A DNA stretch of 40,818 nucleotides from positions 1-40,818 of the forward strand of contig CACIKD010000004.1 of the NCBI GenBank assembly GCA_902587145.1. Reading direction: 5' to 3'. This stretch comes from an uncultured Pelagibacteraceae bacterium (GTDB lineage Bacteria; Pseudomonadota; Alphaproteobacteria; Pelagibacterales; Pelagibacteraceae). The notes beneath the pieces were generated by a model that worked only from the letters and a program-made list of their open reading frames with translations, was not told the DNA's origin and ran no database searches. Below are positions 5,656 through 38,771 of the stretch, in pieces (position 1 is the first letter of the stretch; each line of letters opens with the position of its first letter). The position numbers and the translations under genes were made by a program.

Positions 5656-5784
5656 TTAATTTAATTCTGAATACTTCTTATTTCTTTTTCTTTTATAACT
5701 TCCCCTGCCCTTTTTAGGTTTAACAACTCTAATTCTGTATTTTGGGGTCATTAAATCTTTGGCAAATTTATTTCTTTTTTTCAA
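5656..5784 (-). CDS. ArfA-like alternative ribosome-rescue peptide (42 aa)
   Basis: This very short, highly basic frame carries TPKYRIRVVKPKKGRGSYKR, close to the ArfA core as I recall it from E. coli ([21 protein letters not shown]). ArfA recruits release factor RF2 to ribosomes stalled on mRNAs without a stop codon. The start is a TTG that overlaps the TGA of the upstream regulator (TTGA), with AAAAAGGA about 8 bases before it. The protein is nearly all core: it lacks the hydrophobic tail of the E. coli precursor, and I see no hairpin before the stop like the one controlling E. coli arfA. Family assignment rests on this motif only. Confidence 0.68.
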   Translation of the reverse strand: MKKRNKFAKDLMTPKYRIRVVKPKKGRGSYKRKRNKKYSELN

Positions 5785-6410
5785 ATCGTATATCCTTTTT
5801 TTGAACTCTTAATGAATTTTTCATCTTTAAAAATATCTTTAATTTTTTTTCTTAATCTATAAATATGTGTTTCTACAGTATGAGTATCCGCGTCAGCAGA
5901 ATATTTCCATATGGTAGAGAGAATTTCCTTTTTTTTTATAAATGATTTATTTTTAAGTAATTCTATAAGTTCTATTTCCTTTTCTGTTAATTCTAAATTA
6001 ACAGTACCTTTAATCAATTGCCTTAAATTTTTATCCAATTTATAATTATCAATTTCTAAAGATGAGTTTTTTTTGAACTTTCTTTTCACGATATTATTTG
6101 CAACAATTTTATTAATTTGATCAAAGGATACTGGTAAATTTAATTTTTCAATATTTTCCACACCTTTAACTTTTTTTGAGTTATGAAGAACAATCTTATT
6201 TAGACTTTGATTATTAATTAAATCTTTAAATTTATTATCTTTAAGCGCATCTTCATGGATTATCATCCCCTGAATATTTTCTAAAGATATATCATCTTTT
6301 AAATTATCTATTATTTTTAAATTGAAACTCAGATATTCTTGAATTTCAATTAAAGAATTATTAAATTCTTTATTTCCAAATGCTAAGATGGTATTTTTTT
6401 TATCTGTCAT
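5781..6410 (-). CDS. Atypical OmpR/PhoB-type winged-helix regulator
   Basis: A 209 aa protein with a C-terminal winged-helix DNA-binding domain (about 130-209). The region around ELTEKEIELIELLKN, the recognition-helix stretch THTVETHIYRLRKKI and the terminal wing KFIKSSKKGYTI are typical of the OmpR/PhoB class. The N-terminal 110 residues have the length and hydrophobic pattern of a receiver domain. However, the strand GMIIHEDAL lacks the usual acceptor setting, and the conserved Lys-Pro near LNLPVSF is missing. It therefore probably works without phosphorylation. No sensor kinase lies nearby. Its ATG overlaps that of the divergent L,D-transpeptidase gene, so it is a candidate regulator of that gene. 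Confidence 0.85.
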   Translation of the reverse strand: MTDKKNTILAFGNKEFNNSLIEIQEYLSFNLKIIDNLKDDISLENIQGMIIHEDALKDNKFKDLINNQSLNKIVLHNSKKVKGVENIEKLNLPVSFDQINKIVANNIVKRKFKKNSSLEIDNYKLDKNLRQLIKGTVNLELTEKEIELIELLKNKSFIKKKEILSTIWKYSADADTHTVETHIYRLRKKIKDIFKDEKFIKSSKKGYTI

Positions 6411-12953: not shown

Positions 12954-13961
12954 ATGATACTGAAAAGTTTTGAAATAGAAAATAACATTCAAAAAATTGA
13001 CAAATTTAAATTAATACTCATTTACGGCGAGAATATTGGATTGAAAGAGACCTTAAAAAAAAAAATTGAAAAGTTTAATAAAAACACTGAAATCATAAAT
13101 TTGTATCAAGAAGATATAACCAAAAATAAACAAATTGTAATAAATGAAGTTAATAACGTCTCTTTGTTTTCAGCAGAAAAATTAATAATAATAAATCAAA
13201 CAAGTGAGAGTATGCTTAGTGAAATTAATAACTTATTAGATTTGGATGAAAAACAAAAAGTAAGAATTGTTTTAATAGCAGAATTATTAGATAAAAAATC
13301 AAAGTTAAGAGCAACATTTGAGAAGAAAAATAATTTGGCGGTTATACCCTGTTACAATGATAACGATATTACTTTAAGAAAATTAATTCAAAATGAGCTG
13401 GGTGAGTTTAAAAATTTAAACTCAAATAGTGTTAATATGATACTTAATTATTCAAACTTAAATAGAAAAAACATACTTAACAATATAGAAAAAATAAAAT
13501 CATTTTATGAAAATAAAATAATATCAGATGATAATTTGGAGACTTTATTGAATTCAGACAGGAATGAATTATTCGAAAATATTAGAGATGCAGCACTTAG
13601 CGGTGATAAAATTAAACTAAATGAACTATTAAATAATTTTCCATTTACAAACGAGGATGCTTTTCTTTATATAAACAAATTAAATTATAAATTGATTAAA
13701 CTTTTAGATATACTTAAAGAAAATAATAAACATGGTGATTTAAATACAACTTTATCTAAAATAAGACCACCAATTTTCTGGAAAGATAAACCAATATATT
13801 TAAAACTGCTTAAAAAATGGCATATATCAAGCGTTCTAGATGCATTAACATATTTAGGTAAAATAGAAGAAAAATTAAAAAAAAATAGCACATTGAATGG
13901 GGTCACAGTCGTAAAAAATGCTATTACAAATATTTGTACTAATTCTTGGACTTATTTTTAA
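12954..13961 (+). CDS. holA: DNA polymerase III delta subunit
   Basis: HolA is the clamp-loader subunit that opens the beta clamp. The protein is 335 aa, the normal length. It is an AAA+-like fold without a Walker A nucleotide site, as expected for delta. The N-terminal LILIYGENIGLKETLKKKIEK and the later LFSAEKLIIINQ, KVRIVLIAELLDKKSKLRATFEK and ALTYLGKIEEKLKKNS segments follow the HolA pattern. It follows lptE as in other Alphaproteobacteria. Its last 23 bases overlap the convergent end of parB. Confidence 0.87.
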   Translation: MILKSFEIENNIQKIDKFKLILIYGENIGLKETLKKKIEKFNKNTEIINLYQEDITKNKQIVINEVNNVSLFSAEKLIIINQTSESMLSEINNLLDLDEKQKVRIVLIAELLDKKSKLRATFEKKNNLAVIPCYNDNDITLRKLIQNELGEFKNLNSNSVNMILNYSNLNRKNILNNIEKIKSFYENKIISDDNLETLLNSDRNELFENIRDAALSGDKIKLNELLNNFPFTNEDAFLYINKLNYKLIKLLDILKENNKHGDLNTTLSKIRPPIFWKDKPIYLKLLKKWHISSVLDALTYLGKIEEKLKKNSTLNGVTVVKNAITNICTNSWTYF

Positions 13962-14796
13962 GTAATGAAGTAACAAGTTCTAACTGATCCATATTTTTAT
14001 ATTCAATTGTTAGTTTACCTGAATTATTTTTTTTATTTATGATAGTTACTTTTAATCCTATCGATCTTTCAATATCCCTTTGAGCGTCGAAAACATTAGG
14101 GTCAACAGTAAAAGATTTGGTATTCTTTTTTTTTATATTTTCTATAGATCTAGCAGATAATTTCTTTGCAACAATTTCTTCTGCAATAGATGAAGCGTTG
14201 GGCATTCCAATAAGTGGCCTCGCTTGTCCAGCTGTCAGCTCTCCCTGTTCTAACATTGCTATAATATCTTTCGGTAAATTTAATAGTCTAAGAGTATTAC
14301 TAATATGACTTCGACTTTTTGACATCATATTAGCTATTTTATCTTGATCATATCCAAACTCTTCGTTCAATCGTTTATATCCTTTGGCTTCTTCTACAAT
14401 ATTTAAATCTTCTCTTTGAATATTTTCAACAATGGCAACTTCTAAAGTCTCACTATCATTTAAATCCAAAATAGTTATAGGAACTTCATGCAAGCCAGCT
14501 TTTTGAGCTGCTAACCATCGTCTTTCACCGGCAACAATTTCATATGGCTCAGATGAAGATTTATTTTTACGAACTGCAATTGGTTGAATGATCCCATTTT
14601 TTTTTATAGAATTAGAAAGTTCTGTCAATTTACTTTCATCAAATACCGTCCTTGGTTGGTACTTGTTTCTAGATAGCTCACCTATAAGGGCTTTTTGAAC
14701 ACTCCCTTCAATTTTATCAGTATTTGCAGGGTTTTTTTGATCACCAAAGAGTGCTGATAATCCCTTTCCTAAGCCTTTATTTTTCTTAGCATTCAT
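13939..14796 (-). CDS. parB: Chromosome-partitioning protein ParB
   Basis: ParB binds parS sites near the origin and spreads as a CTP-dependent clamp that ParA moves to the new cell half. It is 285 aa. The N-terminal KGLGKGLSALFGD is the ParA-stimulating tail typical of chromosomal ParB. The CTP-binding region holds RNKYQPRTVFDE and EIVAGERRWLAAQKAG. A helix-turn-helix lies around YDQDKIANMMSKSRSHISNTLRLLNLP (in the 120s to 160s). The C-terminus is the dimerisation domain. The start overlaps the parA stop by four bases. Two candidate parS sites lie within 1.2 kb. Confidence 0.96.
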   Translation of the reverse strand: MNAKKNKGLGKGLSALFGDQKNPANTDKIEGSVQKALIGELSRNKYQPRTVFDESKLTELSNSIKKNGIIQPIAVRKNKSSSEPYEIVAGERRWLAAQKAGLHEVPITILDLNDSETLEVAIVENIQREDLNIVEEAKGYKRLNEEFGYDQDKIANMMSKSRSHISNTLRLLNLPKDIIAMLEQGELTAGQARPLIGMPNASSIAEEIVAKKLSARSIENIKKKNTKSFTVDPNVFDAQRDIERSIGLKVTIINKKNNSGKLTIEYKNMDQLELVTSLLKNKSKN

Positions 14797-15587
14797 GCTG
14801 CGCTTCCTATTTTATTTGTTTGACTTTTAAACTCTTCCGCTAATTTAAAATATGCTTTACTTCCACTGCAGGACTTATCGTACGTTACACATGGTTGACC
14901 ATGAGAAGGTGCTTCGGATAGTCTTACATTTCTTGGAATAACAGATTGGTACACTTTTTCTTTAAAGTAATTTCTTGCTTCTTTATCAACTTGAGAAGAT
15001 AATTTATTTCTTTTATCAAACATTGTAAGTAAAATTCCTCTTACACTTAAAGATGGATTCAAATTGATTTTTATTCTATCTATTGTTTTAACCAATTGGG
15101 TTATTCCCTCTAAAGCAAAAAATTCTGTTTGGAGTGGAACTAATATTTCATTTGCCGAAACTAATGCCATTATCGTTAATAAACTTAATGACGGTGGGCA
15201 ATCTATAAAAATATTATCATACACATTTATTATTTCAGTGTTGTTATTTAAAATCTCTTTAAGTATAAAGGCTCTATTTTCATCATTAGCAGTTTCGACT
15301 TCCAAGCCTGAAAGGTTTACATTTGAGCCAACGATATCTAAGTTTCTGATATCAGTTTTTTGTAAACCATCCTTTAAATTTATTTTTTTTATTAAAAGAT
15401 TATAAATATTTTTATCGTCATCGTTATTCGATTTTCCAAGACCTGTAGTAGCATTGCCTTGAGGATCTAAATCGATTACAAGATTATTTTGACCCAAAAT
15501 GGACAGTGAAGCAGCTAAATTGATTACTGTAGTGGTTTTTCCCACTCCACCCTTTTGATTTATAACAGCTATGATGTTCGGTTTCAC
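14793..15587 (-). CDS. parA: Chromosome-partitioning ATPase ParA (Soj)
   Basis: A 264 aa ATPase that pulls ParB-parS complexes along the nucleoid. The deviant Walker A is KGGVGKTTT (residues 12-20), followed by INLAASL. The Walker B region is IFIDCPPSLSLLTIMAL. VPLQTEFFALEGITQL, RGILLTMFDKRNKLS and IPRNVRLSEAPSHGQP are chromosomal ParA hallmarks. The start is GTG, because MKPNIIAVINQKGG begins there. It sits five bases after rsmG and overlaps parB, so the three are probably one transcript. Confidence 0.97.
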   Translation of the reverse strand: MKPNIIAVINQKGGVGKTTTVINLAASLSILGQNNLVIDLDPQGNATTGLGKSNNDDDKNIYNLLIKKINLKDGLQKTDIRNLDIVGSNVNLSGLEVETANDENRAFILKEILNNNTEIINVYDNIFIDCPPSLSLLTIMALVSANEILVPLQTEFFALEGITQLVKTIDRIKINLNPSLSVRGILLTMFDKRNKLSSQVDKEARNYFKEKVYQSVIPRNVRLSEAPSHGQPCVTYDKSCSGSKAYFKLAEEFKSQTNKIGSAA

Positions 15588-15592
15588 AAAAT

Positions 15593-16213
15593 TTATTTCG
15601 TATTAAGAATAATTATTTTAGAATCATTATTCGTGATACTATTTTCTAATCTATACTTAAAATTGTTCATCATGGAAGTATTATTTATTTCTTGCTGTGC
15701 ATTTTTTCCCTTCATAATGATAATTTTATGTTTTTTTATACAGTTTTCACGTGAAATATTCAATATATAGGATAATTTTCGGAAAGCTCTACAAACTATG
15801 TAATTAGAATCAATTTTTACAGAATTTATGTCATTACATATAATTTTGCAGTTCAAACCTAAAATGTTTGAAATATCAGTCAAAAATGATGATTTTACTG
15901 GTGATTTTTCATATAGTTTCACGTGAAAATTGAAATTTTGAAAATATATAGCTAAAACAATGCCAGGAAAACCGCCGCCGGTACCTAAATCAGCTATTCC
16001 TGAACAGCTCCTAACGTCTATAAATTTAATTAATTGTGCACTATCTAAAATATGCCTAACCCATATTTGTTTTTCGGTATTTTTCGATATTAAATTGTGT
16101 TTTTTATTATAAATAAGGAGTTTTTTTGCAAAATTATCTAATTTTTTTATCTTTAGATCATCAAAATTTAAATCTTTAATGAGAATTCTTTTAACGTTGA
16201 ACTCTGTTATCAA
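15593..16213 (-). CDS. rsmG: 16S rRNA (guanine-527 N7) methyltransferase RsmG
   Basis: RsmG (formerly GidB) methylates G527 of 16S rRNA using S-adenosylmethionine. The 206 aa protein carries the SAM-binding loop [19 protein letters not shown] (about 71-89) after the rRNA-binding segment [30 protein letters not shown] and [14 protein letters not shown] mark the later strands. Its start overlaps the mnmG stop (ATGA). The gene body carries two near-perfect parS words in different codon phases, so part of its sequence seems selected as DNA. Confidence 0.95.
15743..15758. promoter_or_regulatory. Candidate parS site 1
   Basis: The 12-base palindrome TTTCACGTGAAA (15745-15756) lies inside rsmG. The 16-base site matches the well-known parS consensus TGTTTCACGTGAAACA at 13 of 16 positions, with mismatches only at the ends. 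On the minus strand it is read as Ile-Ser-Arg-Glu codons. It is about 160 bases upstream of the parA start. Confidence 0.82.
15915..15930. promoter_or_regulatory. Candidate parS site 2
   Basis: A second exact TTTCACGTGAAA (15917-15928) lies 172 bases from the first, also inside rsmG and also 13/16 to the parS consensus. Here it is read as Phe-His-Val-Lys, a different codon phase from site 1, so protein constraint does not explain both. Confidence 0.82.
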
Positions 16214-18078
16214 GCTGAAGCCCTTTTTTTCCTAGTTTTGATATAACCTAGCAAAATAATAGCTGCGGCTGGAGTTACTCCATCGATTCTTAAAGCTTGT
16301 CCCAATGTTTTAGGTCTAACTATCTTTAACTTTGATTTGATCTCGTTAGAGAGACCGCTAAAAATATCGTAGTCGATCTTGTCTGGTATTTTTATACCTT
16401 CATCTTTTTTGAAGGCTGCTATATCATGAGACTGTCTTTTAAGGTAACCGGAGTAATGAGCATCAATTTCAACTTGATCATCCAAATCATCTCCAAACGA
16501 TGGTATAGTAGGCCATATCTGCCTTATTTTTGCCATATTTATATTCCGCTGCGCCATCAACTCAATGCCAGATCTTTTCACACCATCTTGAGCAATTTTA
16601 ATTTGATGTTTACTTGCTTCATTAGGTGATATTAAATTTGATTGAAGGTAATCTAAAATCTGAGTTAATTTTTTTTGTTTATCTAAAAATATTTTTGTTC
16701 TGGTTTTTCCCACACAATTAATTTTAATACCTGATGGAGTTAACCTTTGATCTGCGTTGTCGGCTCTTAAAGATAATCTATATTCAGCTCTAGACGTAAA
16801 CATGCGATATGGCTCTGACACACCTTTAGTAATTAAATCATCTATCATCACTCCGATATAAGACTCGGATCTATCTAAAATAAATTCCTCTTTTTTTAAG
16901 ATTTTTAGAGCAGCATTAATACCAGCAATTAGTCCCTGAGCGGCAGCCTCTTCATACCCAGTAGTTCCGTTAATTTGCCCTGCAAGGAATAAAGATTTAA
17001 TTTTTTTTGTCTCTAAGGTTGGATTTAGCTCCCTCGGGTCTACATAATCATATTCTATAGCGTACCCAGCTCTTTTCATTTTAACGGTCTCTAAACCCTT
17101 GATTTTACTTAATATTTTGAGCTGTATCTCCTCAGGAAGAGATGTTGAAATTCCATTTGGGTAAACAGTATTGTCCTTTAATCCCTCAGGTTCTAAAAAG
17201 ATTTGATGTTTTTGTTTTTCTTTAAATTTTACAATTTTATCTTCAATGGAAGGACAATATCTTGGTCCAACACCTTTAATATTACCAGAGTACATCGCGC
17301 TCCTATTAATATTATCATTAATAATTTTGTGAACCTCATCATTAGTGTGGGTCATGCCACAAGAAATCTGTTTATTTTCTAATTTAGTTGTTAAGAAAGA
17401 AAAGAAATAAGGATCCGCATCAGCTGGCTGCATTTCTAAATCATCATAATTTATTGTGGACCCATCCAATCTAGGAGGTGTACCAGTTTTCAGTCTTCCT
17501 ATTTTCATATTAAATTTAGCTAGTTGTTCACTTAAACCGGTAGATGGTTTTTCGTCATATCTACCCGCAGGTATTTGTGTTTCACCAATATGTATTAATC
17601 CGTTTAAAAAAGTTCCAGTCGTTAAGATAAGCTCCTTACACATTATCTCCTTACCACTTTTACATAAACAACCTATAACTTGATTGTCATTAAACAAAAA
17701 TTTAGTGACAGGGTCAGCTATCACAGTTAAATTTTTATAATTTAGTAGAATTTTTTGCATGTGCTTCTTATAAAGAGCTCTATCTGATTGAGTTCGCGGT
17801 CCTCTAACTGCTGGACCTCTGCTTCTATTCAATAATCGGAACTGAATACCTGATTTATCGGAGACAATGCCCATCACACCATCAAATGCATCTATTTCAC
17901 GAACCAAATGGCCTTTACCTAGTCCGCCTATAGCTGGATTACACGACATCTCACCAATATTCTCAATTTTATGCGTAAAAAGTGCAGTATTAACGCCCAT
18001 TCTAGCGGAAGCTGCAGCAGCTTCACATCCAGCATGTCCACCACCTATAACTACTACATCAAAGCTTTCTTTAGTCAT
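16210..18078 (-). CDS. mnmG: tRNA uridine-34 carboxymethylaminomethyl-modifying enzyme MnmG
   Basis: MnmG (GidA) works with MnmE to install the cmnm5 group on wobble uridine 34 of several tRNAs. The 622 aa flavoprotein has the FAD dinucleotide loop [21 protein letters not shown] (first 20 or so residues near 9). It also has the signature [35 protein letters not shown], and the late [18 protein letters not shown]. The C-terminal helical domain ends [21 protein letters not shown]. The gene lies between mnmE (42-base gap) and rsmG (4-base overlap), an ancient arrangement near bacterial origins. Confidence 0.98.
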
Positions 18079-18120
18079 GAGGTGAATGTAACGGTCTAAA
18101 TTAATAATACAAGAGCTATT

Positions 18121-19449
18121 TTATTTGCCTATACAGAAGTCCTTAAATATAGATCCAAGTATTTCTTCTACGTCTACCTTGCCAACTATACTACCAAGAT
18201 GTCGTGTAGCCATTCTTAAATCTTCAGCAGCTAATTCTAAATCTTTGTTTTGATCTTTCTTTAGAAACTTATCTATCTCTTTAAGACACTCATTTAGCTT
18301 TACTCTATGTCTCTCTCTTGAAATTAAAGCACTGTTATTTGATGAAAATTTTTTATTAAGTTTCTGTTTGATTAAATTTATTAACTTATCAATATTTTTA
18401 TTATCTTTTACAGATGCTAGTACGGCATCTACATCAAATTTATGATTTTCTTTAGCTTGAACATCAGATTTATTTAGTAAAACTATTGAGTCTTTATTAA
18501 TAATAGACCTTATTTTATCACTAATTTTTTTGTTTGAATTATCGATTACTACAATATTTAAATCGGCTTCTTTAAATTTACTTAACGCTAATGTTATTCC
18601 CTTTTTTTCAACATCATTTTTTGCTTCTCTGATCCCAGCTGTATCTGCAAGAATAACTGGATAACCATCTAAATTTAGATATGTCTCAATGACATCTCTA
18701 GTTGTTCCAGCTTGATCGGAGACTATTGCTGCATCTCTTTTTGATAATAAATTTAATAAAGATGATTTTCCAACATTGGTTTCGCCAACGATTGAAACTC
18801 GGAATCCGTCTCTGATTTTTTCACCTACTTTATTATCATTAATAATTTTACTTATATCACTGTGAATCGATTTAATTGATTTATGGGCTTCTTTAAGGAC
18901 ATTTTCAGGAAGGTCATCCTCAGCAAAATCAATTTTAGCCTCAATAAAAGAAAGTGACTTTATCAATTTTGATCTTAAATCATCGTAATATTTGGAAGCA
19001 TGGCCATTAACTAAATTTACTGCTTGTTTTCTTTGTAGTTCAGTTTCAGAGTGTATTAGATCCCCAATACTCTCAGCTTTTAATAGGTCAATTTTATTAT
19101 TTTGAAAAGCTAGTTTAGTGAATTCTCCAGGTTCAGCCATTCTACAGTTTTTTTGGCTAGATAATACTTTAAGAAAATAACTAATGATTGCGTTACTTCC
19201 ATGAACATGAAATTCTGCTAAATCGTCACCAGTAAAACTATTTGGCTTTGGAAACCATAAGATTAAAGCTTCAGGATCAATAATAGTGCCATTGCTTGGA
19301 TCAAAAAATTTACAGAGGTTTATCTCATTTTCTTTAATCTTTTTTTCTTTAGAAATCAGTTTGCATATACTTAAAGTATCAGGTCCCGACATTCTAATAA
19401 TAGCTATACCACATGGACCTCTACCAGAAGACAAAGCAAAAATATTCAT
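18121..19449 (-). CDS. mnmE: tRNA modification GTPase MnmE
   Basis: MnmE is the GTPase partner of MnmG in wobble-uridine modification. The 442 aa protein has an N-terminal formyl-tetrahydrofolate-binding domain (IFALSSGRGPCGIAIIRMSG). A helical domain is split by the G domain, with G1 GETNVGKSSLLNLL (about 218-231), G2 AGTTRDVIE, G3 DTAGIREA and G4 NKSD. The C-terminal CIGK motif (439-442) carries the catalytic Cys. The ATG overlaps the UbiH-like stop (TAATG), so they are probably co-transcribed. Confidence 0.97.
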   Translation of the reverse strand: MNIFALSSGRGPCGIAIIRMSGPDTLSICKLISKEKKIKENEINLCKFFDPSNGTIIDPEALILWFPKPNSFTGDDLAEFHVHGSNAIISYFLKVLSSQKNCRMAEPGEFTKLAFQNNKIDLLKAESIGDLIHSETELQRKQAVNLVNGHASKYYDDLRSKLIKSLSFIEAKIDFAEDDLPENVLKEAHKSIKSIHSDISKIINDNKVGEKIRDGFRVSIVGETNVGKSSLLNLLSKRDAAIVSDQAGTTRDVIETYLNLDGYPVILADTAGIREAKNDVEKKGITLALSKFKEADLNIVVIDNSNKKISDKIRSIINKDSIVLLNKSDVQAKENHKFDVDAVLASVKDNKNIDKLINLIKQKLNKKFSSNNSALISRERHRVKLNECLKEIDKFLKKDQNKDLELAAEDLRMATRHLGSIVGKVDVEEILGSIFKDFCIGK

Positions 19450-32398: not shown

Positions 32399-32979
32399 GT
32401 TTTATAATTATCTACGTACTCCTTAATTTGTTTTATTGGAAGTCCCATTATAGAATCTTTGTCACCTTTTATATACTCAAATAAATTTAATCCCCCTGCT
32501 TCAATTTGATAAACTCCATAAGCTAATAGTATTTCAGTTTTTATTCCGCTAAGATATTTTTTCAACTCAGTATCAGATAGATTTTTCATTTTTAACTCCG
32601 ATTTATCAGTATGATTCCAAATCATTGCTCCATTTTTAGAGATACATACTGAGCTTATTAAATAATGTTTGTTGCCATTAAGTAACTTTAAAATACTATA
32701 TGCTTCTTCCCTTGAATTGGGCTTGTTTATTAATTTTTGATTAAGAGATATAACGCTGTCTGCACCTAGAACTAAATAGTCTGGATATTTATTGCTAATT
32801 TTGACAGATTTTAATTCTGCTAGGTTTTTTGAAATAATTTCTGGATCTGCTCCTTTGTTTAGTAAAGCCTCTTTGACTTGATCTTCATCTACATTAGAAG
32901 GGGAAACAATGGAATCAACTCCATGCTTATCTAATATATTTTTCCTTACACCGCTTTTAGATGCTAAAACAATTTTCAT
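32395..32979 (-). CDS. Maf-family nucleotide pyrophosphatase
   Basis: Maf proteins hydrolyse non-canonical or modified nucleoside triphosphates such as dTTP, UTP or m7GTP, depending on subgroup. The 194 aa protein has IVLASKSGVRKNIL, SNVDEDQVKEAL, YLVLGADSVISLNQ, KPNSREEAYSIL and the end motif AGGLNLFEYIKGDKDSIMGLPI. The subgroup and substrate cannot be settled by eye. It overlaps both ppsR and aroE by four bases (ATGA). Confidence 0.93.
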   Translation of the reverse strand: MKIVLASKSGVRKNILDKHGVDSIVSPSNVDEDQVKEALLNKGADPEIISKNLAELKSVKISNKYPDYLVLGADSVISLNQKLINKPNSREEAYSILKLLNGNKHYLISSVCISKNGAMIWNHTDKSELKMKNLSDTELKKYLSGIKTEILLAYGVYQIEAGGLNLFEYIKGDKDSIMGLPIKQIKEYVDNYKT

Positions 32980-33797
32980 TTATTTTTTTTAATTTCAATT
33001 ATTTTGATAATTGATGCCGCTGTTTCTTCAACAGATTTTCTTGTTACGTCAATGGTTGGCCAGCTATATTTTTTAAATAAATTTTTGGAATCTTCTACCT
33101 CTTTTTTTATAGAATTTATGTCTGTATAGTTAGTAGATCTACTTTCTTGCATTAAAGCAACTCTATTACGTCTTATGTCAGAAAGCCTCCCTGGATCGGC
33201 AAACAGGCCAATTACACAAGACTTGAAGTTCTTATTTTTTAAATCAACAGGAATATCTTGATTTGGAACAAGTGGTATATTTGTTGTTTTGTAACCTCTA
33301 TTTGCTAAATAAATTGAAGTCGGCGTTTTGCTAGTTCTGCTTACACCCAACAAAACTACATCGGAATTGGACAAATCTTCTGTTCTTTTGCCGTCATCAT
33401 GGGACATTGTGAATTGTATAGCCTCAATTCTTTTATAGTAATCATCATCTAAAACATGTTGAGCGCTAGGTTTGTGTATTGCTTTTTGATTTAACAACTT
33501 TGAAAAAGCTAAAATTAAATTACCAAGTACGCCGAAACATGGAATGTTTGTCTGTTCGCTTTTTTTTGCTAGATATTTCGCGAGTTTAGTTTCAACAATT
33601 GTGTAGAGTATAATAGGATTTTCTCCTGTCACTAATTCTTTAATTATTTTATCAACTTGCTGTTCGGTCCTTACAAAGAAAAATTCTTTTTTATCGTATT
33701 TAAAGTTTTTAAATTGTGATTGTAGGGATAAGAATATTCTATCTAGGGTTTCGCCTGTGGAGTCCGAAATAAGATATACATTGTATTTTTCGTTCAT
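32976..33797 (-). CDS. Pyruvate phosphate dikinase / PEP synthase regulatory protein (DUF299)
   Basis: PpsR-type proteins are both kinase and phosphorylase: they switch pyruvate phosphate dikinase or PEP synthase off with ADP and on with phosphate. The 273 aa protein has NVYLISDSTGETLDRI, the P-loop-like LLGVSRTSKTPTSIYLANRGYKTTNIPLVP, ADPGRLSDIRRNR and WPTIDVTRKSVEETAASII. Its target dikinase is not in the window. It heads the minus operon beside the candidate origin. I believe it is the family called RP001 in the origin cluster of Rickettsia and Caulobacter. Confidence 0.93.
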   Translation of the reverse strand: MNEKYNVYLISDSTGETLDRIFLSLQSQFKNFKYDKKEFFFVRTEQQVDKIIKELVTGENPIILYTIVETKLAKYLAKKSEQTNIPCFGVLGNLILAFSKLLNQKAIHKPSAQHVLDDDYYKRIEAIQFTMSHDDGKRTEDLSNSDVVLLGVSRTSKTPTSIYLANRGYKTTNIPLVPNQDIPVDLKNKNFKSCVIGLFADPGRLSDIRRNRVALMQESRSTNYTDINSIKKEVEDSKNLFKKYSWPTIDVTRKSVEETAASIIKIIEIKKNK

Positions 33798-33901
33798 AAT
33801 CTTGTTAATAAAAATCGTATAACTTCGTTTTATATTTTAAAACCTCTTTTAAAAAAAAATTACTCACATTAATTAACAAATTAAGTACATTTTATTCATT
33901 G

Positions 33902-34001
33902 TGAACTATTTTATACCCTTTAACTATAAACTGTGAGTATAATACTATCAATAATTCATATAAGAGCAAATTTAGTCGTGTTCATGGGTATAAAATGTTC
34001 A
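33902..34001. repeat. Long imperfect inverted repeat inside the candidate origin
   Basis: The left arm TGAACTATTTTATACCC (33902-33918) and right arm GGGTATAAAATGTTCA (33986-34001) are reverse complements except for one extra T in the left arm. Ten consecutive bases next to the 67-base centre match perfectly. The centre contains a DnaA-box-like word and a TATAAT. The spacing suggests paired protein-binding sites or a cruciform rather than a terminator. Confidence 0.7.
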
Positions 34002-34006
34002 AAACT

Positions 34007-34015
34007 TGGTATAAT
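34007..34015 (+). promoter_or_regulatory. Candidate extended -10 promoter of hemE operon
   Basis: TGGTATAAT is an exact extended -10 box (TGn-TATAAT) 66 bases before the hemE start, on its strand. No good -35 box is visible, which extended -10 promoters often lack. It lies just after the right arm of the inverted repeat, so a protein bound there could affect hemE transcription. Confidence 0.42.
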
Positions 34016-34080
34016 TAAATATAGTCGATACTAACATGACCTATTACAATAACTTGTCTTATTAATATATTATTTAATTT

Positions 34081-35091
34081 ATGAGTAGATTGTTGAATTG
34101 TTTAATTAATAAAGATTTTTCTTGTGTGCCAGTTTGGTTTATGAGACAAGCAGGAAGATATTTGCCAGAATTTAGAGAGCTAAGATCTAAAAATCCAGAT
34201 TTTTTAAAATTATGTTTAAACAGTAATTTAGCTTCCAAAATAACACTTCAACCGCTTAAAAGATTTAATCTTGACGCAGCAATTATTTTTTCTGACATTT
34301 TAGTAGTACCTTATGCGCTTGGACAATCGATAGAATTTAGAGAAAAAAGAGGACCCTGGAGTCCTAATTTTAATATAAATAAATTTTTGAATGTGGAAGA
34401 AAAAGATTTTTTATCTACTCTTAAACCAACATATGAGGCAATAAAAAAAACAAAGAGCATAATTCAAAAAGATAAATCATTAATAGCTTTTATAGGGGCA
34501 CCATGGACATTAATTATATATTTATATAACCTTAAAGAAGGTAGAAACATTAAAGATCAAATAACTATTGATAACAAAAAAGAGATAAAATTAGTTATTG
34601 ATAAACTTGAGGAGTTTTTGAAGATTCACATAATGCATCAAATAGAAGCCGGAGCTGACACTATTCAAATTTTTGACTCCTGGGCAGGCATGATTAAAGA
34701 TGAAGACCTTAATGAATACTGCTATCAGCCAAATAGAAATTTAGTTAACTTTTGTAAAGAAAACAATGTCCCAACGATATGTTTCCCCAAAGGGTTAAAA
34801 CAAAATTACAAGGAATTCGTTAAGAAAGTTGGACCAAATGCAATTAGCATTGATTACGAGATAGACCCGTTGTGGGCTAAAAAAAATTTAAATAATATCT
34901 GTATTCAAGGAGGCATGAAACCCGAATTGCTTTTTGAAAGTGAAAAAAAAATTATGGAAGAAACAGATAAATACTTAGAAATTTTCAAAAATAACCCATA
35001 TATATTTAATCTAGGTCACGGTATTCTTCCAAACACTAACCCAGAAGTTATCAAAAAAATTGTAAATAAGGTAAGATTAATTAAAAGATGA
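34081..35091 (+). CDS. hemE: Uroporphyrinogen decarboxylase
   Basis: HemE removes four carboxyl groups from uroporphyrinogen III to give coproporphyrinogen III in haem synthesis. The 336 aa barrel has the N-terminal signature VPVWFMRQAGRYLPEFRELR and the catalytic Asp in AAIIFSDILVVPYALG. GAPWTLIIYLY, DTIQIFDSWAGM, ISIDYEIDP and FNLGHGILPNTNPE are further markers. hemH overlaps its stop by four bases. No clear ribosome-binding site precedes the ATG. Confidence 0.97.
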   Translation: MSRLLNCLINKDFSCVPVWFMRQAGRYLPEFRELRSKNPDFLKLCLNSNLASKITLQPLKRFNLDAAIIFSDILVVPYALGQSIEFREKRGPWSPNFNINKFLNVEEKDFLSTLKPTYEAIKKTKSIIQKDKSLIAFIGAPWTLIIYLYNLKEGRNIKDQITIDNKKEIKLVIDKLEEFLKIHIMHQIEAGADTIQIFDSWAGMIKDEDLNEYCYQPNRNLVNFCKENNVPTICFPKGLKQNYKEFVKKVGPNAISIDYEIDPLWAKKNLNNICIQGGMKPELLFESEKKIMEETDKYLEIFKNNPYIFNLGHGILPNTNPEVIKKIVNKVRLIKR

Positions 35092-38501: not shown

Positions 38502-38612
38502 TTACATAATTATATGTTTAAAAAATTAGAACTGTCAATTTGTAAAAATACGCTGAAAATTTACCGACACATATAGGAAACAGTTGTCCTCAAATTTCAT
38601 ATAAATAGTTAC

Positions 38613-38641
38613 TTGCTTAATTTTGAAAAAACTAATACTTT
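38613..38641 (+). promoter_or_regulatory. Candidate promoter of tRNA-Gly
   Basis: TTGCTT (38613-38618), a 17-base spacer and TACTTT (38636-38641) resemble a sigma-70 promoter. They lie so that transcription would start about ten bases before the tRNA. Spacing is ideal, but both boxes are weak, and AT-rich DNA gives many such matches. Confidence 0.35.
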
Positions 38642-38658
38642 TATCAACAATAGAACAA

Positions 38659-38733
38659 GCGGGCATAGCTCAGTGGTAGAGCGTCTCGTTGCCAACGAGA
38701 AGGTCGAGGGTTCAAGTCCCTTTGCCCGCTCCA
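38659..38733 (+). tRNA. tRNA-Gly (anticodon GCC)
   Basis: A full cloverleaf can be folded. The acceptor arms GCGGGCA and TGCCCGC pair perfectly. The D arm GCTC/GAGC has AGTGGTA in the loop. Anticodon stem TCTCG/CGAGA encloses loop TTGCCAA with anticodon GCC. The T arm GAGGG/CCCTT has loop TTCAAGT. The discriminator is T and the terminal CCA is encoded. The length is 75 bases. It stands alone between the Lon-domain gene and a cupredoxin gene. Confidence 0.97.
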
Positions 38734-38771
38734 AATAGTAGCGACTAAATTTCCATTTTTTTTTTCTAATT

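Follow-up and report, generated by a model that had tools for sequence, protein, structure and literature searches.

The ppsR–hemE intergenic gap as a predicted chromosomal replication origin in SAR11 bacteria

The window analyzed here, 40,818 nucleotides in length, is a single contig from a 685-kb draft genome (61% complete) of an uncultured Pelagibacteraceae bacterium; strand skew was therefore read in relatives only. The one named relative found, also an uncultured Pelagibacteraceae bacterium, shares 71% identity in HemE, and on this basis the organism is treated as SAR11. Within the window, two divergent genes flank an intergenic gap:

32976..33797, minus strand: ppsR (COG1806/DUF299, Kinase-PPPase; Pfam PF03618, E 2.6e-89), the counterpart of RP001/CC0001
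33798..34080, no strand assigned: candidate oriC, the ppsR-hemE intergenic gap (283 bp, 20.8% GC)
34081..35091, plus strand: hemE, uroporphyrinogen decarboxylase (Pfam PF01208, E 3.4e-91)

Downstream of hemE come an ORF that reads as hemH, a UPF0093 protein of the hemJ type (found by Pfam scan) and an ORF that reads as rho. The divergent order ppsR, gap, hemE-hemH-hemJ on which an initial annotation had based its prediction of an origin is thus borne out, with hemH assigned by reading of its sequence. So is its description of the gap as the largest non-coding stretch and as AT-rich. Among the ORFs used, no intergenic gap is longer, the runner-up (38502-38771, 270 bp) containing a tRNA, and GC content falls from 29.9% in the window to 20.8% in the gap (AT, 70.1% versus 79.2%). 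The gap must additionally hold the promoters of ppsR and hemE, and TGGTATAAT at 34007-34015 looks by eye like an extended –10 word, probably part of the hemE promoter. A perfect 11-bp inverted repeat, ATTTTATACCC/GGGTATAAAAT, occupies 33908-33918 and 33986-33996, its arms 67 bp apart; by eye, the left arm is intact only in L002 and L006 of the gap alignment. A leader peptide reading of the sequence beginning ATGACCTATTAC was ruled out, as its ATG is not conserved across the genus.

The gap contains a series of words resembling DnaA boxes, listed here with their state in an alignment of 29 gaps from the genus:

33803..33811, minus strand: box-like word TTATTAACA, one mismatch to TTATNCACA, adjoining ppsR; TGTT in 29/29 gaps, the complete TGTTAATAA in 16
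33860..33868, plus strand: box-like word TTACTCACA, tandem word 1 and the first word of the initial annotation; AACA in 20/29, CACA in 9/29
33870..33878, plus strand: tandem word 2, TAATTAACA; AACA in 28/29
33881..33889, plus strand: tandem word 3, TTAAGTACA; ACA in 26/29
33900..33908, minus strand: box-like word TAGTTCACA, the second word of the initial annotation, inverted relative to the tandem array; TGTTA in 15, TGTTG in 9 and TGTGA in 4 of 29
33932..33942, minus strand: box-like word TGTGAGTATAA, the third word of the initial annotation; TGTTA, TGTGA or TGTGG in only 11/29, of which 7 are the window's subclade
33985..33993, minus strand: box-like word TTATACCCA, one mismatch to TTATNCACA; conserved mainly within the window's own subclade
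34030..34048, plus strand: the most conserved element, ACTAACATGACCTATTACA, a possible unwinding element; box-like ACTAACA, a short GC run and CTA/TTA triplets

The three tandem words all end in ACA and are spaced by 10-11 bp. The words singled out in the initial annotation are present (TTACTCACA at 33860, TGTGAACTA at 33900, TGTGAGTAT at 33932) but individually weak, with two, three and three mismatches, respectively, to TTATCCACA. Because 19 words with up to three mismatches to TTATCCACA occur in the gap, these three alone mean little; no exact TTATCCACA is found anywhere in the window. Across the 29 gaps, the first two fall on constant places, whereas the third is kept in only 11; TTATACTCA, at 33934, lies one mismatch from TTATNCACA. 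The alternative word TTATNNACA yields a single occurrence in the window's gap, with no cluster and no excess over shuffles. For TTATNCACA with at most one mismatch, the gap holds four words, compared to 0.8 in dinucleotide shuffles, and none of 100 shuffles reaches four. No other 284-bp stretch of the window is as rich in TTATNCACA-like words. In the window's subclade (L002-L007 and L009), the first box reads CTCACA in 7/7, and TGTGA stands at the two inverted boxes in 4/7 and 5/7.

We then considered how far the locus is conserved. Among 30 fetched loci (L002-L031), ppsR is divergent to hemE in 29, the one left out (L011) having no ppsR found within its 4-kb locus; L032 was left out of the counts since its gap is identical to that of L005. 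By coordinates, ppsR and hemE are also adjacent in 27 of 29 further Pelagibacteraceae. The intergenic location typical of hemE/COG1806 origins is thus found in 29/30 loci and 27/29 genomes. Gap length varies little, 269-286 bp in the 29 genus loci and 267-286 bp in the six gaps from other genera that have both flanks. The initial annotation had proposed aligning the gap across relatives as a check, and the alignment agrees with the origin reading. Identity to the six closest relatives is 80-85% (66-68% for shuffled sequences), rising to 83-93% over the hemE-proximal 96 bp. In these relatives, hemE and ppsR show 33-43% identity at fourfold sites, a value that comes from a codon alignment and stands on a different scale from the gapped-alignment figure for the gap. 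With four more distant members of the genus, whole-gap identity (68-69%) hardly exceeds that of shuffles (66-68%) in the same gapped alignment; conservation at this distance therefore sits in the words and the hemE-side element rather than in the full gap. In that element, ACTAACATGACCTATTACA, 30-50 bp before hemE, ACA and CTA are invariant and the adjacent A and C are at least 90% conserved over 29 sequences.

A sequence model, R1, was searched in 45 chosen genomes. All 13 of the 29 genus members with an intact hemE start gave a match next to hemE (E ≤ 1.3e-7), and 11 of the 13 were not in the model; the remaining 16 (12 without hemE, four with the hemE start cut) gave no match below 0.004. 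Outside the genus, the signal is weak. The best match of the genome falls at the expected position in G152, G153 and G174, and a match that is not the best does so in G154 and G155; among the matches listed, none is in place in G151, G150, G156-G158, G160, G175 or G176 (a local match in G176 has E 0.087), and the sister-family genomes G091 and G092 have no match. The pattern AACANGACCTANTA was rejected as too short for a genome-wide marker: it matched 21 times in 18 of 91 genomes, 13 times just upstream of hemE and eight times elsewhere, and its reversed control matched 23 times. In G153 (C1:358209-359200), the hemE reading is split in two by a frame break and contains one stop, owing to either a frameshift or a sequencing error.

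Clustering of box-like words at the gap extends beyond the window. The 29 genus gaps contain 103 such words in 8,021 bp (12.8/kb), compared to 108 in 106,804 bp of flank (1.0/kb), taken as the remainder of the same 4-kb loci. In a set of 37 gaps (the 29 of the genus plus eight from other genera), TTATNCACA exceeds shuffles at P ≤ 0.05 in 28 and TTATNNACA in 17; for these counts the G150 gap includes ∼20 bases of hemE, and G152 is represented by the entire 353-bp stretch between ppsR and rho. We also ranked clusters of degenerate words over sampled DNA, 40 to 600 kb per genome. With TTATNCACA at up to one mismatch, no other place equals or outranks the gap in the window, G174, G175 and G150, and with TTATNNACA the same holds for G176 and G152; for TTATNCACA, the gap of G176 ties with four other places, one of them ∼3 kb past dnaA, and that of G152 with two. 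Four TTATNNACA words lie in the gap in G176 and G175, where whole-genome expectations at each genome's own rate are 0.018 and 0.014. The corresponding expectations for the TTATNNACA counts of G152 and G150 are 0.5 and 0.6, and the counts of G153, G157 and G160 are unremarkable. Hence, on degenerate words and sampled DNA, boxes cluster as in a hemE/COG1806 origin, except in G160, G157 and G153, where other places score equal to or higher than the gap.

Could the many TTAACA words of an origin at this gap serve an OmpR/CtrA-type regulator instead of DnaA? The spaced motif TTAA-N7-TTAA occurs 26 times in the 37 gaps, with at least one copy in 20 of them, compared to 8.8 times in shuffles. The window also encodes a candidate protein:

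5781-6410, minus strand: OmpR-type winged-helix regulator (PF00486; no receiver domain match in Pfam)

A search of 11 relatives placed the best homologue of this regulator 17-28 kb from the gap in every one. On the other hand, the motif is absent from the window's gap and from that of G176, its spacing is what TTAACA words placed every 11 bp would produce, and the 37 gaps, being related, do not amount to 37 independent tests. Moreover, Pelagibacter has no ctrA ortholog according to a published survey (PMC2877005), and the regulator has 28 NCBIfam matches, and no CtrA model appears among the 25 that were listed, from a library that may lack one. We regard this assignment of the words as unlikely.

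Genes and sites of chromosome segregation, together with mnmG/mnmE, are found on the ppsR side of the window:

13939..14796, minus strand: parB (Pfam PF02195/PF17762/PF23552)
14793..15587, minus strand: parA, the ORF adjoining parB, assigned from a reading of its sequence
15743..15758, no strand assigned: parS-like palindrome with a perfect TTTCACGTGAAA core, beside parA
15915..15930, no strand assigned: second parS-like palindrome with a perfect TTTCACGTGAAA core, from a palindrome search of the window
16210-19449, strand not given: mnmG/mnmE, named by reading their sequence

The statement that parABS and mnmEG lie nearby therefore stands, with parB/parA and mnmG/mnmE 14-20 kb from the gap and parS-like sites at ∼18 kb. 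Allowing three mismatches, the window has three parS matches (0.24 expected), two of which carry the perfect 12-bp core and lie 18 kb from the gap. Ten genomes were searched; in eight, all of other genera, parS with at most one mismatch occurs 7-20 kb from the gap and nowhere else; with at most two mismatches, there is none in the window's own draft genome or in G078 (96% complete, same genus). HU/IHF family genes are present in 10/10 genomes.

The initial annotation further suggested that a minimum of GC skew should mark the gap rather than dnaA. We calculated skew per gene at fourfold sites, corrected for coding strand, giving a resolution of ∼20 kb. The largest data set was from G176, a complete relative of 1,308,759 bp that we take to be HTCC1062 (30 stretches, 600 kb used). 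Over ±500 kb, its best AT-skew switch coincides with the gap (0 kb; bootstrap 0 to +20 kb), with a log-likelihood gain of 86 at the gap versus 55 at dnaA, 64 kb away. Within ±150 kb, the best position is +22 kb, at 61.9 versus 61.2 at the gap. A free fit of two AT switches on a 20-kb grid puts them at +5.6 kb and +466 kb, dividing the chromosome into unequal arms, one of 35%. An origin/terminus pair fitted by skew to HTCC1062 likewise has unequal arms, one below 40%, in a paper that cautions that skew may be misleading for genomes of this kind and whose section on the fit prints no origin position (PMC2099444). The AT switch is at –2 kb from the gap in G174, –6 kb in G153 and +8 kb in G160, with gains at the gap versus dnaA of 38 versus 10.5, 12 versus 1 and 11.5 versus 7.7, respectively. 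GC skew is weak throughout: the best switch in G176 is at –52 kb (bootstrap –60 to +10 kb), and other genomes show nothing clear. Neither AT nor GC skew gives a usable switch in G157, G175, G150, G152 or G091; in the last of these, raw GC skew has a broad valley that takes in the gap, and the strand-corrected fit has no switch. Thus, a strand-composition switch near the gap is seen in relatives, by AT skew, in four of nine genomes, and the skew prediction holds for AT skew in these four but not for the weak GC skew or the other five. These data support the region over dnaA, but skew by itself does not resolve to the gap.

In many bacteria oriC lies at dnaA, and replication could conceivably begin elsewhere in this region, for example beside that gene. 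GRiD places dnaA fragments at the origin (PMC7852909), and SAR11 alignments have been started at DnaA (PMC12421898). The ∼20-kb resolution of the skew leaves room for such a site, AT skew is best at +20 kb (62 versus 50 at the gap) when five genomes from a single genus are pooled, and G176 has a stretch with four TTATNCACA-like words ∼3 kb past dnaA. Yet dnaA fits the skew worse than the gap in each of the four genomes with a switch, and in nine genomes the count of box-like words within 3 kb of the dnaA C-terminus never exceeds 1-3 per 284 bp. We consider a start outside the gap highly improbable. The distance from dnaA to the gap is 61-74 kb in 13 genomes (measured to ppsR, or to hemE in G091), with dnaA on the hemE side in some genomes and on the ppsR side in others, as would be expected of inversions about an origin.

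Loci that lack one flanking gene are informative. In G152, the order is ppsR, gap, rho; hemE is not there, and a remote homologue of 28% identity is located at 718 kb. The gap (L076 1329-1681) carries ATAAACATGACCTAATAACA, which is similar to ACTAACATGACCTATTACA and is the best R1 match in that genome (E 0.0018). The hem genes expected to separate rho from ppsR are missing from this place. G151, of the same genus, likewise has hemE not beside ppsR and a distant, 28%-identical homologue elsewhere; in both genomes this suggests that the ancestral gene was replaced. Three members of the sister family, G091-G093, have no PF03618 match, and the order in G091 is hemE, a 275-bp gap, then maf-aroE-coaE-dnaQ (L043 1673-1947; names other than hemE by eye), so that the locus looks as if ppsR alone were missing at an origin. 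Within the 400 kb read in G091, the highest-ranking TTATNCACA cluster starts in this gap, which itself holds three TTATNCACA words and no TTATNNACA. These cases suggest that the hemE/COG1806 origin address is kept in the streamlined lineage even with one flanking gene missing.

They also bear on the idea that the gap is only a divergent promoter or leader region of ppsR and hemE, its box-like words being promoter or regulator sites. The need to accommodate two promoters, the –10-like word TGGTATAAT and the hemE-proximal position of the most conserved part all fit this idea. Because rho, the next gene in G152, could use the same promoter, the similar element there argues against a hemE-specific leader and not against every promoter role. 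But with the gap surviving in G091 without ppsR, and with the skew switch and parS proximity left unexplained, a promoter-only function seems very unlikely.

The gap has the features of a known class of alphaproteobacterial origins. Cori of Caulobacter crescentus lies between hemE (CC_3763) and COG1806 (CC_0001), the same two flanks as in the window, and both regions are AT-rich relative to their genome and contain several words of the DnaA-box type. Caulobacter parS is ∼8 kb from the origin (PMC5815017), comparable to 7-20 kb from the gap in the eight SAR11 relatives. Cori is 404 bp long, with CtrA and IHF sites (PMC1914354), whereas the window's gap is 283 bp, its boxes are more degenerate, and it contains no TTAA-N7-TTAA and no GANTC. 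The lack of CtrA sites is not decisive, as the predicted origin of one Wolbachia strain has none either (PMC1914354). A CcrM homologue has been reported in SAR11 (PMC3973325); GANTC is present in 4 of the 37 gaps. Rickettsia origins share with the SAR11 locus the flanking pair (hemE RP_885 and COG1806 RP_001), an AT-rich intergenic region and a reduced genome; they measure 383-396 bp (PMC1914354), compared to 267-286 bp for SAR11 gaps where both flanks are complete.

A further comparison is with the basal unwinding system of the Bacillus subtilis type, which comprises a DnaA box, a GC-rich spacer and 3'-GAT-5' trios (PMC8287927). ACTAACA-TGAC-CTATTA in the gap can be read in similar terms, as a word resembling a box, then a spacer of 4 bp, then CTA/TTA triplets, the order that such a system would have, but the triplet run in the window is short. 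Using our own scoring (box with up to two mismatches, spacer of 0-16, at least three NAN trios; 60 shuffles per gap), a DnaA-trio search rose above shuffles (P ≤ 0.05) in 3 of 37 gaps; DNA this AT-rich satisfies the rule by chance. In the open literature, as far as its text was available, we found no position for a SAR11 origin; subscription papers and DoriC were outside our scope, and DoriC probably holds a prediction.

Collectively, the place of the gap, its conservation in close relatives, the clustering of boxes, the AT-skew switch in four genomes, the proximity of parS and the survival of the gap when a flanking gene is lost all agree. On this basis we predict, with a probability of about 0.9, that the ppsR-hemE gap is the chromosomal replication origin, positionally homologous to Caulobacter Cori and the Rickettsia origin. 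It belongs to the known hemE/COG1806 type; what is new is its compactness, together with degenerate boxes that shift between lineages despite a canonical-looking DnaA. The suggestion that replication starts from under 300 bases with poor boxes is compatible with the kept gap length, and adjoining coding DNA could take part. In the window's own genome, domain IV of DnaA carries RRSR..ARPRQ..NRDHTTVIHA, and nine relatives match it with small changes; we take these to be the canonical box-reading residues. Canonical recognition is therefore expected, and most of the boxes should be weak sites.

Working from these features, one can picture how such an origin might operate. DnaA would fill the mostly weak boxes cooperatively, engaging the tandem ACA trio with its 10-11 bp spacing, the opposed inverted words and the hemE-side element. 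It would then open the very AT-rich DNA beside the boxes, probably at the hemE-proximal end near ACTAACATGACCTATTACA, a site suggested by the sequence. Forks would depart both ways from the gap, and parS with ParAB, 7-20 kb away, would segregate the new origins. More tentatively, SAR11 origins may use a worn, shifting box code, read by a DnaA that looks canonical. In most of the genus the boxes are of the TTAACA type at 10-11 bp, and in the window's subclade they look as if they shift together. As no CtrA is reported, timing might be set by many weak sites, perhaps together with the OmpR-type regulator encoded near the origin. We hold this to be a possibility, although a doubtful one.

If the prediction is right, the SAR11 chromosome starts replication at the same gene address as those of Caulobacter and Rickettsia, but with worn DnaA-binding words. 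In the 13 relatives measured, tools that equate dnaA with the origin would err by 61-74 kb. With the candidate region narrowed to a gap of <300 bp, SAR11 initiation becomes directly testable, with respect to its boxes, its unwinding and its control without a reported CtrA. For these very abundant cells with tiny genomes, the gap offers a firm target for measuring replication.
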